Shown here piece after piece: positions 6,586 to 20,260 of a stretch of DNA of 64,000 nucleotides. Numbering within the stretch: position 1 is the stretch's first letter; each line of letters starts with the position of its first letter. Position numbers and translations under genes: made by a program. The stretch comes from Rhodocytophaga rosea (GTDB lineage: Bacteria > Bacteroidota > Bacteroidia > Cytophagales > 172606-1). The stretch is taken from the NCBI RefSeq assembly GCF_010119975.1, contig NZ_CP048222.1:4606501-4670500 (forward strand). The letters run 5' to 3'. The notes under the pieces are model-generated. The model made no database searches. It was not told the DNA's origin and saw only the letters and a program-made list of their open reading frames with translations.

Positions 6586-9500
6586 TTATATGACCACATT
6601 CACAATCTTCTTCGGAACTACAATCACCTTTTTGGGCGATTTGCCTTCCATCCATTTCTGTACCTGCTCGGAAGCCAGTACTGATTTTTCAATGTCTGCT
6701 GCAGTAGTATCCAGAGAAAAAGTCATTTTAGCCCGCAGCTTTCCATTAATAGAAATGGGGTATTCAAAAGCTTCTTCTGCCAGATAATCATTGTTGAACT
6801 TTGGATAACTGGCTTTAAATATGCTTTCTGAATTGCCCAGCAATTGCCATAATTCTTCAGCCATATGTGGTGCATAAGGCGCTACTACAATAGCTAAGTC
6901 ACGTAAAATCGCTTTTTTATTGCACTTCAGGGCTGAGAGTTCGTTCACACAAATCATAAAGGTACTCACAGAGGTATTGAAAGAAAACTTCTCAATATCT
7001 TCCTGCACTTTTTTAATGGTTTTATGTAACGATTTTAGTTCTTCTTTCATCGGCTCGGCATCCGATAAGTTCAGGTTGCCCATATCATCGTGAAACAAGC
7101 GCCAGAGTTTACGCAGGAAATTATGTACGCCGCTGATACCATTGGTATTCCAGGGCTTGAATTGCTCCAGCGGACCCAAAAACATTTCATACAAACGTAG
7201 CGTATCTGCGCCATACCTTTCCACTACATCATCTGGATTCACTACATTTCCATACCGTTTAGACATTTTTTCGATTTCCCAACCACATATATATTTGCCC
7301 TCTTCCAGCAGAAAAGTGGCTTCTTTAAAATCAGGGCGTTGTTTACGCAGGGCTTCCACATCCAGAATGTCGTTTTCCACAATATTCACATCTACGTGCA
7401 GCGCTGTTACCGGCACGTTTCTAATCAGATTTTTGGAAACAAACAAGGAAGAGATAGAAACACCATAGTCGAACTCCGGATCGGCAATTTGTCTTTGCAG
7501 GGCTTTTTCAATTTTGGCAATGGCTACTTCGGTATTAGTAATGACTTCCTCATGCGATAACAGCAGCATTTCATACTCACTATGTTTGATATAGTTGTAA
7601 TTGAAATCATAAAACTCCTGCATCGATTTGAGTCCCTTGATCTCTACCACCAGTCTTTTTTGCACACACAGGAAATCAAATTTGTGCTTTCCATCATAAC
7701 ATTTCCGGCTGAATTCTACACCCAGCTTCTTATCTTTCAGCCGTTCCCACATCAATTCTTCTGCATAGGCTTCTATATCATTTACCCGGTATACAAAATT
7801 CGACCGTCCCTGAATCATGCCCTGGTTAATAAGCTTTTTGAAAGGCTCCTCTACGGTAACATATCCCAGGTCATACAAAAACTTGGTCCAGAAGCGGGAA
7901 TACAATAAATGGCCGGTGGCATGTTCAGAACCACCAATGTATAAATCTACATTTTGCCAGTAGGCCTGGGCATCTTTGCTGCAAAACTCCTGCTGGTTGT
8001 GGGCATCCATATAGCGGAAGAAATACCAGCTGGAACCGGCCCAGCCCGGCATGGTGCTCAACTCATATTCATACCTGCCTTTATATTTCCAGTTATGGGC
8101 ACGTCCCAACGGCGGCTCACCGGTTTCGGTTGGCAAATACGCATCTACCTCCGGAAGCAACAAAGGCAAATCTTTTTCATCAATCAAATGAGGCATGCCA
8201 TTATCAAAGTATACCGGCACTGGTTCGCCCCAGTAGCGCTGACGGCTGAAAATAGCATCCCGCATCCGGTAGTTTATCTTGCCTGTGCCAATTTCCATTT
8301 CTTCCAGCTTATTAACTGCTGCCTGCATAGCCTCTTTTACTTCCATGCCATCGAGAAAACCGGAGTTTACCATTTTGCCTTCTTTGGCATCATTGGCTTC
8401 CACTTCCAGATTTCCGCCTTCAATCACTTGGCGGATGGGCAGGCTGAAATGTTTGGCAAAGGCATAATCCCTGGAATCAGAAGCAGGCACTGCCATAACA
8501 GCACCAGTTCCGTAGCCAGCCAGTACATAATCTGCAATCCAGATGGGAATTTGCTCCCCGGAAAAAGGATTGACGGCAAAGCTTCCGGTAAAGGTACCAG
8601 AAATGGTTTTTACATCACTCATCCTGTCCCGTTCGGAGCGGTTTTTAGCGGCTTCTACATAGGTTTCTACGTCATATTTGCGCTCTGGAGTAGTCAGTTT
8701 GGGCAGATCTTCGTATTCCGGAGCCAGAGCCAGATAAGTAACGCCGAAAATAGTATCTATCCTGGTGGTAAATACTTTTATTTTCAGGTCAGAATTGGCT
8801 ACGGCAAAATCAAACTCAGCTCCGATAGATTTTCCGATCCAGTTGCGCTGCATTTCTTTCAATGGTTCCGGCCAGTCGATTTCTTCCAGCCCTTGCAACA
8901 AACGTTCAGCATAGGAGGTAATGCGCATGCTCCATTGCTGCATTTGTTTGCGTATCACCGGATAACCTCCCCTCTCCGATAAGCCATCTTTAACTTCTTC
9001 ATTAGCCAGTACCGTACCCAGTTGGGGGCACCAGTTCACGATGGTTTCTGCCAGGAAGGTCAGGCGGTATTTCAGCAGAATTTCCTGCTGCCGGGTGGAA
9101 GAAAAAGCCTGCCATTCTGTGGCTGTAAAGGCTGGTGTGTCATCATCGCATACGGCATTCACTTTCGCATTTCCATTCTTTTCAAACGTGTGGATGAGGC
9201 TTTCTATAGATTCTGCTTTATCGGCATCTTTATTATACCAGGCATTGAACAGCTTCATAAAAATCCACTGTGTCCATTTATAAAAATCTGGCGCAGAAGT
9301 ACGTACTTCTTTACTCCAGTCGTAGGCAAAGCCAATATTTTTAAGCTGCGATATATAGCGGCTGATGTTCTGTTCGGTAGTAATGGCCGGATGTTGACCG
9401 GTTTGAATGGCATATTGTTCGGCAGGCAAGCCAAAGGAATCAAATCCCATCGGGTGCAGCACATTATGTCCGGTAAGCCGTTTGAACCTGGCTACAATAT

Positions 9501-9678
9501 CGGAGGCAATATAACCTAATGGATGGCCTACGTGCAAACCTGCACCTGAAGGATACGGAAACATATCCAGTACATAATATTTAGGTTTAGCCGAGTTAAC
9601 TTCTGCCCGGTACAACTGCTGGTTTTCCCATTGCTGTTGCCATTTTTTTTCTATTTCCCGGAAATTATATTGAGCCAT
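6586..9678 (-). CDS. leuS: Leucyl-tRNA synthetase with inserted DUF559-type domain
   Basis: Charges tRNA-Leu in the cytoplasm. The 1030-residue protein has the class I signature HVGH (49-52) in [12 protein letters not shown], the CP1 editing domain (roughly 290-470, [16 protein letters not shown] and [11 protein letters not shown]), the tRNA-synt block [11 protein letters not shown], and an anticodon-binding/C-terminal region ending in [10 protein letters not shown]. It is about 100 residues longer than usual Bacteroidota LeuRS because residues ~633-750 hold an extra DUF559-like domain (separate entry). The KMSKS loop reads KMSKR (804-808), and the editing-site HDxRD block reads SDSRD (401-404 region). 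All other LeuRS blocks are in frame, so the gene looks functional. A TAnnTTTG promoter motif lies 63 bp upstream. It is the only aminoacyl-tRNA synthetase in the window. Confidence 0.96.
7429..7782 (-). other. DUF559 / PD-(D/E)xK-like domain inserted in LeuRS (residues ~633-750)
   Basis: The segment lies between the LeuRS blocks [14 protein letters not shown] and [11 protein letters not shown], which are normally much closer together. It contains the DUF559 signature: an acidic helix [15 protein letters not shown], then [21 protein letters not shown] and a late helix pair around [19 protein letters not shown]. Asp668, Glu679 and Lys681 are spaced as in a PD-(D/E)xK nuclease core (D-x10-E-x-K), so the active site may be intact. 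There are no stops and the frame continues on both sides. Its place corresponds to the leucine-specific domain region just before the KMSKS loop. Recognition of the family is from motif memory, not a search. Confidence 0.75.
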
Positions 9679-14838: not shown

Positions 14839-15411
14839 ATGCCCATACAGCTTCATATTAAGAACATGGTTTGCGACAGATGTGTACTGTATGTGGAGAG
14901 TATATTAAAACAATTATCTATCCCTTTTCAAAAAGTACAGGTAGGCGAAATCCATCTACATGAAGATTTGCTGGAAACTCAAAAGCAATTATTACAGCAA
15001 CGTTTACAGGCAATTGGGCTCGAATTGATAGATAACCGGCTTAATCAGCTTATTGAGAAAGCAAAAACCCTGATTCTGGCCAGAGCCCGCAACGAAGTGC
15101 CCGAACAAGAGAAGCATCAAAAACTTTCGGTGTATCTGTCTGAACGCTTGCACCTGGATTATTTTTACCTGAGTACCTTATTTTCGTCGGTAGAAGGCCG
15201 CACCATTGAAAATTATTTAATTGAACAGCGTATAGAAAAAGCGAAAGAACTCCTGGTATATGGCGAACTATCGCTTTCAGAAATAGCCTATCAGCTCGAT
15301 TATAGCAGTGTAGCCCACCTTTCCGGGCAGTTCAAGAAAACTACTGGTCTTACCCCCTCCCATTTTAAACAGATCGGCACTAATAAGCTCAAATCCTTGG
15401 ATAAAATATAA
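14839..15411 (+). CDS. HMA-like / AraC fusion regulator 1
   Basis: A 190-residue protein with two parts. Residues 1-~65 resemble a heavy-metal-associated (ferredoxin-like) domain: IQLHIKNMVCDRC with Cys12 and Cys15 in the CxxC loop, then LEDLLETQ-type helices and a closing strand IGLELIDN. Residues ~105-185 are an AraC helix-turn-helix pair (IENYLIEQRIEKAKELL, LSLSEIAYQLDYSSVAHLSGQF and LTPSHFKQ). It has no usual AraC sugar-binding domain. The inferred role is a one-component metal, probably Cu(I), sensor-regulator. A second copy lies at 17228, and a Cys-rich peptide gene, a multicopper oxidase and copA sit between or next to them. Has its own TAnnTTTG motif. Confidence 0.85.
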   Translation: MPIQLHIKNMVCDRCVLYVESILKQLSIPFQKVQVGEIHLHEDLLETQKQLLQQRLQAIGLELIDNRLNQLIEKAKTLILARARNEVPEQEKHQKLSVYLSERLHLDYFYLSTLFSSVEGRTIENYLIEQRIEKAKELLVYGELSLSEIAYQLDYSSVAHLSGQFKKTTGLTPSHFKQIGTNKLKSLDKI

Positions 15412-15505
15412 ACCGCCTGTTCTTTTATAACCTTCTAAGTGAAAGATCAAATAATTATATAAATCTATCACAAGATTATAGAATAGCCAGCCTACTCCCT
15501 CCCTG

Positions 15506-15513
15506 TATCTTTG
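15506..15513 (+). promoter_or_regulatory. Probable promoter -7 element of the Cys-rich peptide gene
   Basis: TATCTTTG, a match to TAnnTTTG followed by C, lies 31 bp before the ATG at 15545. This supports independent transcription of the short gene. Confidence 0.45.
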
Positions 15514-15544: not shown

Positions 15545-15685
15545 ATGAAAAATACATCTGTAGAATTTCAGAATACCGATCTGGCATGTAATTGCGCTAG
15601 TCCTTCTTGTACCTGTGACAACTGTACCTGTGGAGATTCCTGCGGTGGCGACCATTGTTCCTGCGGCTGCGATTGCTGCCGTTAA
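15545..15685 (+). CDS. Metallothionein-like Cys-rich peptide (46 residues)
   Basis: A 46-residue ORF, too short for usual gene calling, that reads ATG to TAA with a normal start and its own promoter motif. The first 13 residues are ordinary (MKNTSVEFQNTDL); residues 15-45 are packed with 12 cysteines in CxC and CxxC spacing (CNC, CTCDNCTC, CSCGCDCC) together with one His and several Asp. The pattern is that of small metal-thiolate clusters such as metallothioneins. Located between two HMA-AraC regulators and before a multicopper oxidase and copA, it probably binds Cu(I) or another soft metal in the cytoplasm. I do not recognise a named family. A hairpin terminator directly follows. Confidence 0.75.
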   Translation: MKNTSVEFQNTDLACNCASPSCTCDNCTCGDSCGGDHCSCGCDCCR

Positions 15686-15693
15686 TGCTGATG

Positions 15694-15725
15694 AATGCAG
15701 CTTGTCTGTATAGGCAAGCTGCATT
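15694..15725 (+). terminator. Hairpin after the Cys-rich peptide gene
   Basis: A perfect 11-bp stem (15694-15704 with 15715-15725), 10-nt loop, starts 9 bp after the stop codon. Only a short T stretch follows, so it could either end transcription or stabilise the mRNA end. Confidence 0.55.
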
Positions 15726-15812
15726 TCCAAACCTTCTCTACAATTCGTCATTCCTGTCATAATACACAACTACTATCTAACATTCTACTCATATTATTAA
15801 TCCTTTAACACG

Positions 15813-17153
15813 ATGAAAAGCCATCACCACCCTACCAGTCAAGTTATATCCTACGAATTAGAAGCAAGCATTTTTTCATGGGAAATAGCCGAAGGAAAAA
15901 CAGTAGAAGCCTGGGGTTTTAACAATCAATTGCCAGGACCTTTGTTACGCGCCAGAAAAGGAGATACGCTGGAAGTAAAAGTGAAAAACAACCTGCCGGA
16001 ACCTACTATGATCCACTGGCATGGAATTCGCCTGCCCGCCAGCATGGATGGCACAGGAGAAGTGCAAAAACCCATTGAGCCAGGTGAAGAATTTACTTAC
16101 CGCTTTGTAGTACCCGATGCAGGCACGTTCTGGTATCATTCCCACGCCAACGAAACGTTTCAAATGGAAAGAGGCATGTATGGAGGATTGATCGTGGAAG
16201 AAGGAACAGCACTGGTTACCGATGGAGAAAAAGTGTTCCTGCTGGATGATATGAAGCTTACCGCTGAAAATGAATTTACCAAACCGGGCTGGTTTATCCC
16301 TCGGATTATGGAAAGGCACGATGGCCGGGAAGGAGATACGCTTCTGATAAATGGAAAAGAAAATCCCACTATTTCAATAGCTGGCGGACAAGCCGAAAGA
16401 TGGCGCTTTATAAATGCCTCCAGTGCCAGATATATTCAGTTATATTTGGGTGGAAAAGAGTTTAAGATCATTGGAACAGATGGCGGCTTGCTGGAACATC
16501 CCCAAACGGTAACCCAGGTACTACTTACGCCGGGAGAACGTATAGAAATAATAGCCGGACCTTTTACAGAAGGCGAAAGCTTCCTGATAGAAACACTGCC
16601 CTATAACCGCATGACTTTCCTGAAAGCAAAACGGCAGACGTTTGCCACCATACAAGTAGGTGCACAGAAACCTTCCGTGGCCTATATTCCGCAAATACTC
16701 CGTAAGATTGAGCCTTTGGCTGAAAAAGAGGCTCCGGTTTCCAGAAAACTAAAGTTATCAGTAGGCCCTAGTTTAAAGCATGGAATGGATTTTCTGGTAA
16801 ACGGTGATGTACATACCAGCGACCAGCCGGTAAAAGTAGGCGAACTCCAGGTGTGGGAAGTAGCGAATAGCAGTTTGATGGATCATCCGTTTCACTTGCA
16901 TGGTTTCTTCTTTCAGGTGATCGAAGAAAATGGAGAAGCCCCTGACTATATTGCCTGGAAAGATACCTACAATCTTCCGCCCAGAAGCAGGATAAAAATT
17001 GCCTGGATGCCAGATGACCGTCCTGGCGAGTGGATGTATCATTGTCATATTTTAGAACACCATGCCGCCGGTATGATGGCACATTTTGAAGTAGTAAATC
17101 CAGACCGTCCATCTGAAGCAGCATATGCAAGTGACCATTCTTGCAAACACTAA
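15813..17153 (+). CDS. Multicopper oxidase without a signal peptide
   Basis: A 446-residue three-cupredoxin oxidase. All four copper-ligand blocks are present: HWHG (His68, His70), WYHSH (His109, His111), HPFHLHG (358-363) and HCHILEHHAAGM (His410, Cys411, His412, His416, Met421). Type 1 and trinuclear copper sites therefore look complete. The N-terminus (MKSHHHPTSQ) has neither a Sec nor a Tat signal, and no upstream in-frame start adds one, so the enzyme may be cytoplasmic. Most copper-resistance oxidases of this kind are exported. It may oxidise Cu(I) or phenolic substrates. It lies 88 bp from the terminator after the Cys-rich peptide and 75 bp before the second regulator. Confidence 0.93.
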   Translation: MKSHHHPTSQVISYELEASIFSWEIAEGKTVEAWGFNNQLPGPLLRARKGDTLEVKVKNNLPEPTMIHWHGIRLPASMDGTGEVQKPIEPGEEFTYRFVVPDAGTFWYHSHANETFQMERGMYGGLIVEEGTALVTDGEKVFLLDDMKLTAENEFTKPGWFIPRIMERHDGREGDTLLINGKENPTISIAGGQAERWRFINASSARYIQLYLGGKEFKIIGTDGGLLEHPQTVTQVLLTPGERIEIIAGPFTEGESFLIETLPYNRMTFLKAKRQTFATIQVGAQKPSVAYIPQILRKIEPLAEKEAPVSRKLKLSVGPSLKHGMDFLVNGDVHTSDQPVKVGELQVWEVANSSLMDHPFHLHGFFFQVIEENGEAPDYIAWKDTYNLPPRSRIKIAWMPDDRPGEWMYHCHILEHHAAGMMAHFEVVNPDRPSEAAYASDHSCKH

Positions 17154-17227: not shown

Positions 17228-17773
17228 ATGGAGAAGACAGTAAAAATAAAAGGAATGGTATGCAGGCGTTGCATAGAAATAGTAAAAGAGATTTTTGAAA
17301 GCCAGGGCTTGCCTGTACACGAGGTTAAACTCGGCGAAGTGACATACCAGGAAAATGATGCCCAGGCCCTTGAAGCCGCAATCAGGCTGCTGGAAAAGGA
17401 GGGATTTGAACTCTTAACCGATAAACAATCGCTGACCATTGCCAAAGTAAAAGAACTGGTAGAACAGGAATTGAATACTACTAAAGCGCATAGCAGAAAT
17501 TTTGCCCAATTGCTTACAGAATCGTTACCTATGGATTACGATACGATCAGCGCTTTGTTTTCACATACAGAAGGCATTACCCTGGAACAATACTTGATTC
17601 ATAGGCGGGTACAAAAAGTACAGCAATTACTAAAATATACCTCACTTACCTTAACAGATATTGCCTTTGATCTGGGCTATAGCAGTGTACACCACCTATC
17701 TAATCAATTTAAAAAAATCACCGGAATGTCGCCTTCCCAGTTCAGAGAATTGCAGGCTGGAGTAGAGAAATAG
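17228..17773 (+). CDS. HMA-like / AraC fusion regulator 2
   Basis: A 181-residue paralog of the regulator at 14839. Start ATG 17228 (MEKTVKIKGMVCRRC) is chosen because it puts the strand and CxxC (Cys12, Cys15) exactly where they are in the first copy; a longer frame from 17141 would overlap the oxidase gene and has no metal-domain residues in the added part. Residues 1-~65 are HMA-like. The C-terminal AraC part has LEQYLIHRRVQKVQQLL, LTLTDIAFDLGYSSVHHLSNQF and MSPSQFRELQ. The two paralogs differ over most positions yet keep the CxxC and the HTH, suggesting different metals or targets. Transcribed alone, followed by a strong terminator. Confidence 0.83.
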   Translation: MEKTVKIKGMVCRRCIEIVKEIFESQGLPVHEVKLGEVTYQENDAQALEAAIRLLEKEGFELLTDKQSLTIAKVKELVEQELNTTKAHSRNFAQLLTESLPMDYDTISALFSHTEGITLEQYLIHRRVQKVQQLLKYTSLTLTDIAFDLGYSSVHHLSNQFKKITGMSPSQFRELQAGVEK

Positions 17774-17995: not shown

Positions 17996-20260
17996 ATGAA
18001 CGCAGAAAGCATAACCTTGACCAAAAAAGCAAGGCTGGATTCAAAAAACAAAGAAACGAAAATAACCCTGCCAGTCACTGGAATGACCTGTGCGGCTTGT
18101 GCCGTGAGTGTAGAATCTATGCTCAAATCGCAGGAAGGCGTAGCCGATGCGGGTGTTAATTTTGCCAACCAGACAGCCTGGGTAGATTATATTCCTTCGC
18201 AGACTTCTCTTCCCAAATTGCAGCAAGCCATACAATCCATTGGTTACGATCTGATTATTGATGAGGAAAATGCAGTTGAAAAACAGCAGGAAGCACAATT
18301 AAACCATTATCAGGAATTGAAACGCAAAACCATCTGGGCAGGTATTTTATCTGCGCCTGTGGTAGCAATTGGGATGTTCGGAATGGAAGTACCCTATGCC
18401 AACTGGATCATGCTGATTCTTTCCCTGCCGGTATTGTGGATCGGACGTAATTTCTATATCAATGCCAGAAAACAAGCGAAACATGGCAAAGCCAATATGG
18501 ATACGCTGGTAGCTATGAGTACCGGAATTGCCTTTTTGTTCAGCTTATTTAATACCTTAAATCCGAATTTTTTTCATGAGCGGGGGTTACATGCCCATGT
18601 GTACTACGAAGCCGCTATTATGATTATTGCCTTTATCTTACTGGGCAAATTATTGGAAGAAAGGGCAAAATCTAATACTTCTTCAGCTATGAAAAAACTG
18701 ATGGGACTACAGCCCAAAACGGTAAGACTGATAGAAGATGGCGTCGAAAAAGAAATTCCTATTGCCCAGGTAAGCATTGGAAATATACTGGTGGTAAAAC
18801 CTGGTGAAAAAATTCCGGTGGATGGCAAAGTAACTTCCGGAAGTTCGTATGTGGATGAAAGTATGATCAGTGGGGAACCCTTGCCAATGGAGAAACAAGC
18901 AGGCGCCCAGGTATTTGCCGGAACCGTAAACCAGAAAGGCAGTTTCCGGTTTGAAGCGGAAAAAGTAGGAGGGGATACGATTTTATCACAGATTATTAAA
19001 ATGGTGCAGCAGGCCCAGGGAAGCAAAGCTCCGGTAGAAAAACTGGTTAATAAAGTGACTGCCATATTTGTGCCGGTAGTCATTGGGATTGCTTTACTTA
19101 GTGCGGTTGTATGGATGATTTTTGGAGGCGATAATGCTTTTACACATGCTTTATTGGCTTTTGTAACCGTGATGGTCATTGCTTGTCCATGTGCTTTGGG
19201 TTTGGCAACACCAACAGCGATTATGGTAGGTGTGGGCAAAGGAGCTGAGAATAACATTTTAATTAAAGATGCTGAAAGTCTGGAATTAGGCTATAAAGTA
19301 AATGCCATTGTGCTGGATAAAACTGGTACCATTACAGAGGGTAAACCTGAGGTAACGGATGAGCTATGGTTTACAAAAGAAAGTGATAAAATGCAGAACA
19401 GGTCTATTTTGTTAGAAATAGAATCCCGTTCGGAACACCCGTTGGCTGAGGCAGTGGTTCGGAAACTTAGAGGTGAACAAACACAGGCTATAAATTTATC
19501 TTCTTTTGAAAGCCTTACCGGAAAAGGAGTAAAAGCTAGTTATGACAATGAAATTTATCTGGTAGGAAATCAGAAATTACTGGCGGATAACCATGTTTCT
19601 GTAAGTGAAGCCGTAACTGCCCAGGCAAAATCCCTACAAGCTGAAGCCAAAACTGTAATCTATTTTGCGTCAGGCAAAGAGGTAGTAGCCATATTAGCCA
19701 TCGCCGACCGGATCAAAGCTACGTCTAAGCAAGCTGTACAAACCTTGCAAAACCAGGGGATCGATGTATACATGCTTACGGGGGATAATGAACAAACCGC
19801 CAAGGCAGTGGCAATACAGGTAGGCTTGCAGCACTACAAAGCCGAAGTATTACCTTCTGAAAAAGCTGAATTTATCAAGCAATTGCAAAACCAGGGCAAA
19901 GTAGTAGCCATGGTAGGCGATGGTATCAATGACTCTCATGCGTTGGCTGAGGCAGATGTAAGTATTGCGATGGGCAAAGGTTCGGACATTGCAATGGATG
20001 TAGCTAAAATGACTCTGATCACTTCTGACCTCAACCAGATTCCCAAAGCCTTAAAACTCTCCCGCAAAACGGTGCAAGCTATTAGGCAGAACCTATTCTG
20101 GGCGTTTATTTACAATATCATAGGTATTCCCATTGCGGCAGGAGTATTGTATCCTTTCTTTGGTTTCCTGCTCGATCCAATGATTGCTGGAGCAGCCATG
20201 GCCTTGAGTTCAGTATCAGTTGTAAGCAATAGCCTACGCTTACGGAGTGCAAAATTGTGA
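17996..20260 (+). CDS. copA: Copper-translocating P1B-type ATPase
   Basis: A 754-residue integral membrane pump exporting Cu(I) with ATP hydrolysis. An N-terminal HMA domain has [12 protein letters not shown] (Cys32, Cys35). There are eight expected transmembrane segments, with the intramembrane metal site ACPC (397-399) in [15 protein letters not shown]. The phosphorylation site is DKTGTIT with Asp441; other motifs are the SEHPLAEA motif of P1B pumps, and the hinge GDGIND with Asp642. Length and motif order are normal. The N-terminal 20 residues before the HMA domain are charged and variable. Following a dedicated promoter it is transcribed alone, and it belongs with the metal island just upstream (regulators, Cys-rich peptide, oxidase). 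Confidence 0.96.

Follow-up and report, generated by a model that had tools for sequence, protein, structure and literature searches.

Metallothioneins are rare in bacteria, and as of 2020 only SmtA and MymT had been functionally investigated (PMC7558416, PMC7387436). SmtA has a zinc-finger fold and sequesters zinc and cadmium (PMC7558416), and the RicR regulon of Mycobacterium tuberculosis comprises, besides MymT, genes for a putative lipoprotein and for a putative multicopper oxidase (PMC10141476, PMC7558416). As to the Bacteroidota, the copper systems credited to them in a 2023 survey of marine bacteria are of the two-component and ECF types only (PMC10141476). Here we analysed a short Cys-rich peptide encoded in a 64-kb stretch of DNA (hereafter, the window) which very probably represents a new bacterial metallothionein family that mops up copper in excess. 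Specifically, we consider it likely that this peptide acts in the cytosol as a metallothionein that buffers Cu(I), is induced by copper and is controlled by an HMA-AraC sensor of its own.

The peptide gene occupies positions 15545-15685 of the forward strand, and its assignment as metallothionein-like draws on translation, Cys motif, relatives, profile search and dN/dS. Its translation, MKNTSVEFQNTDLACNCASPSCTCDNCTCGDSCGGDHCSCGCDCCR followed by a stop codon, comprises 46 residues with 12 cysteines, all within residues 15-46, just as the original prediction had described it (12 Cys in the last 32 residues). With a single Phe, neither Trp nor Tyr and a wealth of CxC/CxxC clusters, the composition fits the broad, functional sequence criteria for metallothioneins. 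No other ATG-initiated ORF of 25-100 amino acids in the window has at least 7 Cys at a content of at least 12% Cys, and the Cys motif of the peptide has 0 occurrences in three mononucleotide shuffles of ~1 Mb. Searches of Pfam, NCBIfam and PDB with the window peptide returned 0 matches, in agreement with the earlier statement that it fits no named family; HMMER composition filters can mask weak kinship among Cys-rich peptides. A 46-amino-acid copy in another member of the same genus, located directly downstream of the orthologous HMA-AraC gene, is 60% identical and keeps 11 of the 12 Cys. Comparison of these two genus copies gives a dN/dS of ~0.14, a rough value with dS near saturation, and most diverged peptide pairs fall at ~0.08-0.26, close pairs being uninformative. 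At the DNA level, the alignment of the two copies displays a block before the promoter box that has hardly changed, and downstream a hairpin of differing sequence. An ORF this short and without a named family could in principle have arisen by chance within a regulatory leader, but start, stop and Cys pattern are conserved, dN/dS is low in most informative pairs, and relatives occur across many lineages. We rejected a chance origin on the strength of these Cys-rich relatives, the shuffles without the motif and the dN/dS values, and give it a negligible probability; by the same measures, 15545-15685 is a real, conserved gene.

The HMA-AraC protein encoded upstream was scanned against 84,980 species genomes, which yielded 80 loci; the relatives of the host locus found through the regulator belong to the Bacteroidota. 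Peptide relatives of 37-59 amino acids with 7-14 Cys adjoin the HMA-AraC gene in about 35 Bacteroidota loci. A short Cys-rich ATG ORF lies near the regulator, on the same strand, in most of loci L006-L033 and in L046. After a relaxed motif scan had added L029, only L028 and L030 among L006-L033 (n=28) are without a peptide, and the more diverged regulators of L034-L085, except L046, have none and are often adjacent to CopA instead. The peptide usually follows ~100 bp downstream of the regulator, lies ~100-250 bp upstream of it in Flavobacterium, and is found at ~1.4 kb in L011. Its relatives share the core motif C-x-N-P-N-C-x-C-x-x-C-x-C-G-x-x-C-x-C, and the family alignment has the consensus C-x-N-P-N-C-T-C-x-N-C-x-C-G-x-x-C-T-C-x-x-C, in which C22, C24, C27 and C29 are invariant and C17, N19, P20 and C33 near-invariant. 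Members differ in tail length and in their number of Cys (7 to 14), so that metal stoichiometry does not appear to be conserved; the C-terminal CxCGCxCC form of the window peptide recurs in L097 and L099. The comparison suggested in the original prediction, a search for conserved short ORFs next to HMA-AraC genes, thus does find a common Cys pattern, and what had there been a lone peptide belongs to a family that has its own regulator and operator. Flavobacterium soyangense has a tandem duplication of the peptide gene together with its operator (L022:6572-7119).

Several weaker peptide matches were set aside. Two peptide-only matches in the order (L004, L005) were ascribed to chance, as no matching ORF lies in the match frame, and so was that of L003, which lies in a 234-amino-acid frame with 33% identity and without the motif. 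Weak matches of a two-sequence profile across the phylum (L086-L092) were rejected for want of the motif, and matches on Streptomyces plasmids because they lie inside polyketide synthases. Outside the phylum, an unannotated 33-amino-acid ORF of Tsukamurella tyrosinosolvens, MIQHDSFAPGCSNPNCTCENCSCGDSCTCGSDK (NZ_LR134461.1, ~96830-96931; L093:5971-6072), has the same Cys core and is located between a mycothione reductase and an alpha/beta hydrolase, without an HMA-AraC gene; it could be an actinobacterial branch of the family or a case of convergence.

The pairing of peptide and regulator also emerged when the neighbourhood was left out of the search. A peptide-only profile, run on 395 genomes of the class at a threshold of E<=1e-4, matched in 8 genomes (2%, the window's own included), and 8/8 matches lie immediately beside an HMA-AraC gene, though the peptides used to build the profile had themselves come from the vicinity of HMA-AraC. 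Two of them (L095, L098) have the same sequences as the profile members L029 and L027, which, with the window also excluded, leaves 5 independent matches. When 86 regulators are placed in a maximum-likelihood tree, 31 peptide-bearing loci group within a single clade of 33 rows (support 100/95), and peptide presence requires 5 label changes compared with 26.8 in shuffles; the peptide loci L099 and L101 fall outside this clade.

The regulator itself, HMA-AraC1 (14839-15411, forward strand, 190 amino acids), combines an N-terminal HMA domain carrying C12-x-x-C15 with a C-terminal AraC HTH, and thus has both features of an HMA-AraC regulator, an HMA fold with CxxC and an AraC HTH. Pfam detects the HTH, while the Pfam HMA model does not match the protein. 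However, a profile of 41 orthologs matches CopZ and the metal-binding domains of CopA/ATP7B (residues 2-67) as well as AraC HTHs, and an AF2 model (pLDDT 91) places the N-terminal domain in the order beta-alpha-beta-beta-alpha-beta. Superposition of this domain on CopZ/Atx1/HAH1 gives a Z of about 7, which is middling taken alone; it is the sequence profile, the modelled fold and the CxxC together that identify the N-terminus as a copper-chaperone (CopZ/Atx1-like) HMA fold. The likeness to CopZ/Atx1 chaperones and CopA metal-binding domains thus extends to both predicted fold and CxxC, the difference from the chaperones being that in HMA-AraC1 the domain is fused to an AraC DNA-binding domain. 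Across 41 regulator sequences, C12, R14 and C15 (CxRC) are invariant, and this metal site next door strengthens the earlier suggestion, made from the copper island, that the peptide is a Cu(I) buffer. We predict that HMA-AraC1 senses Cu(I) and activates the peptide gene. The constant presence of a regulator with a metal-chaperone domain also speaks against the idea that the peptide is a redox or oxidative-stress thiol peptide to which metals are incidental. Its many cysteines would suit such a role, and the bacterial metallothionein PmtA is linked to oxidative stress as well (PMC11237414); the CxC/CxxC spacing, however, is typical of metal clusters, and we regard this explanation as improbable. 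Three other HMA-AraC paralogs are encoded in the host genome. One (L105, contig position 179402-179947) reads MVSQRC in place of the usual MVCxRC and has lost one metal-site Cys.

Between regulator and peptide gene lies the putative operator, a direct repeat with a period of 21 bp at 15448-15486 on the forward strand (half-sites 15448-15462 and 15469-15486). Derived from a gapless upstream alignment, the 39-bp element takes the form CCCAAAATTATRTAA-N6-CCCAAAGTARTRTAAC, also written CCCAAAATTATRTAA-N6-CCCAAAGTARTRTAACA. A period of 21 bp corresponds to two turns of DNA, as in AraC-family half-sites. Relatives of the clade have the element at an equivalent distance from the peptide, 90-99 bp before the ATG in the loci aligned (133 in L009, ~95 bp in the window), and its end is separated from the TAnnTTT(G) box by 18-19 bp in 26/28 measured loci; this would be the position of a -33 element, as might be expected of a polymerase-touching activator. 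When the operator matrix is derived from loci other than the window and its genus neighbour, 15448 ranks top of the whole 64 kb on both strands, at 10.8 bits against 3.4 for the next site and 8.9 bits for the highest score in shuffled loci. The window site is diverged from the consensus, given that operators beside the peptide in relatives reach 35-55 bits. The site of the genus neighbour scores 15.5 bits. Allowing <=3 mismatches to the genus version, the window site is the only one in the 8.98 Mb single-contig genome. The co-conservation of regulator and operator leads us to infer that HMA-AraC1 binds 15448-15486. No convincing operator was found at L099 and L101, and a candidate before the window CopA (17894, -3.3 bits) was rejected as not above noise. 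In relatives, the same operator type also precedes copper genes: a further copy lies before CopA in L054, and in L028, where no intact peptide is left, it precedes a multicopper oxidase, which supports the copper reading. In L030, of the same regulator clade and without a peptide, the operator precedes a lipoprotein-like gene (L030:6563). Operators are also found before a DJ-1/PfpI protein (L011:6556) and before putative esterases with lipoprotein-like N-termini (L022:8038, L028:3212). Together, the sites at L011, L022, L028 and L030 suggest a wider HMA-AraC regulon.

Downstream of the operator, at a distance of 19 bp, the Bacteroidota-type -7 promoter box TATCTTTG (15506-15513, forward strand) lies 39 nt before the ATG, and the claim that the gene has its own TAnnTTTG motif is thereby borne out; a scan for sigma-70-type promoters at the peptide gene found none. 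On the 3' side of the stop codon, folding reveals a hairpin at 15693-15726 (forward strand) with a 15-bp stem and -22.3 kcal/mol (z -4.75; 0/200 shuffles as good). Nearly all relatives have a hairpin at this position, differing in sequence. Only TTTCC follows the window hairpin, a weak T-run, which is why a generic terminator scan omitted it. The proposed hairpin terminator is upheld as far as the strong hairpin goes, but with so short a T-run its role as terminator is only probable, and it might terminate partially, leaking into the multicopper oxidase gene downstream; by eye, there is no TAnnTTTG box between the hairpin and that gene. Expression signals are present on both sides, a TAnnTTTG at a fixed operator distance and a hairpin downstream, where the original prediction had taken their absence as an argument against the gene.

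The neighbouring genes point to copper. A CueO-like multicopper oxidase with the full set of Cu motifs (15813-17153, forward strand; Pfam) follows the peptide gene, as it does in several relatives. It is succeeded by a second HMA-AraC regulator (17228-17773, forward strand), 36-38% identical to the first and located immediately before a CopA-type copper-exporting P1B ATPase with an N-terminal HMA domain (17996-20260, forward strand; family matches). Elsewhere in the window, a leucyl-tRNA synthetase gene (6586-9678, reverse strand, 1030 amino acids) has a DUF559 domain inserted into its product at residues 637-727, a Pfam match above the cutoff (E 3.5e-9). Since neither the window oxidase nor its relatives have a signal peptide, the enzyme is probably cytosolic, and it is conceivable that the peptide serves chiefly to carry Cu(I) to this adjacent oxidase and metallate it, rather than as a general buffer. 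Such an enzyme would be loaded in the cytosol, and oxidases of this type, 65-72% identical, were encountered nowhere but in loci with the peptide-type regulator. However, most peptide loci have no such oxidase in the stretch examined, which implies that the peptide works without it, and we consider a carrier role unlikely as its main function.

The choice of metal deserves separate attention, since the domains involved are not specific by themselves: HMA-type CxxC domains can also bind Zn, Cd, Ag and Au, and Cys-rich peptides any thiophilic metal. The peptide might thus serve Ag, Au, Cd, Zn or Hg, the copper genes being part of a broader metal island. Thiolate clusters lack metal specificity, GolB, which binds gold, is among the HMA folds related to the sensor, and SmtA, one of the bacterial metallothioneins whose function is known, serves zinc (PMC7558416, PMC7387436). 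We nevertheless prefer copper because of the CopA and multicopper oxidase neighbours, in the window and in relatives (whose neighbourhoods are partly annotated), and because it is copper chaperones and copper ATPases that the sensor domain matches by sequence in PDB; another metal seems to us rather unlikely. For copper buffering, a mechanism can be outlined in which rising cytosolic Cu(I) would load the CxRC site in the HMA domain of HMA-AraC1, and the loaded regulator would bind the 21-bp-period direct repeat and activate transcription from the TATCTTTG promoter. The 46-residue peptide would then be made, and its CxC/CxxC thiolates could enclose several Cu(I) ions as a cluster. Free copper would fall in this way, pending export by the adjacent CopA and oxidation or use by the multicopper oxidase. 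With somewhat less assurance, we propose that the separate metallothionein family, the one-component HMA-AraC sensor and the 39-bp operator form a stand-alone copper-buffering regulon of the Bacteroidota, in which the sensor clade has split from the HMA-AraC clades serving CopA and the peptide may load the cytosolic oxidase.

How does this family relate to the metallothioneins described to date? In NCBIfam, no member of the peptide family has a match. SmtA/BmtA (Metallothio_Pro, PF02069) are likewise small multi-Cys bacterial proteins beside a metal-responsive regulator, in the case of SmtA the regulator SmtB. Neither 30 family members at E<=1 nor the window peptide matched PF02069, and a family profile retrieved no SmtA or other bacterial metallothionein structure from PDB, short Cys-rich profiles being weak; by sequence, the peptide is not an SmtA/BmtA member. 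Dense CxC/CxxC arrays are shared with plant and eukaryotic metallothioneins (wheat Ec-1, PF12749), but the matches are weak and patchy (Ec-1 at E=0.3; PF12749 in 3/30 members, best E=6e-4, weak and composition-like), and convergent composition would be the simpler reading. We found no description of the peptide family or of its HMA-AraC pairing in the literature covered, which takes in few subscription journals. A sequence-distinct Bacteroidota family would extend copper buffering to a phylum whose copper control is little described; its regulator and operator are open to direct testing, and the operator can serve to locate unrecognised, very short ORFs in metal islands. The likeness to MymT lies in a small Cys-rich copper ORF that was unannotated when found (PMC10141476, PMC7558416), and that to the RicR regulon in the common operator which, in relatives here, stands before multicopper oxidase and lipoprotein-like genes. 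MymT, however, belongs to another phylum and RicR is a CsoR homolog, whereas the conserved neighbour here is an HMA-AraC protein. The Cys spacing of MymT also appears to differ from that of the peptide family. By analogy the peptide seems functionally MymT-like, but it apparently represents a separate sequence family. Metallothioneins as a kind are already known; what appears to be new is a family absent from the searched libraries and its pairing with HMA-AraC, a regulator type different from those of both MymT and SmtA/BmtA.
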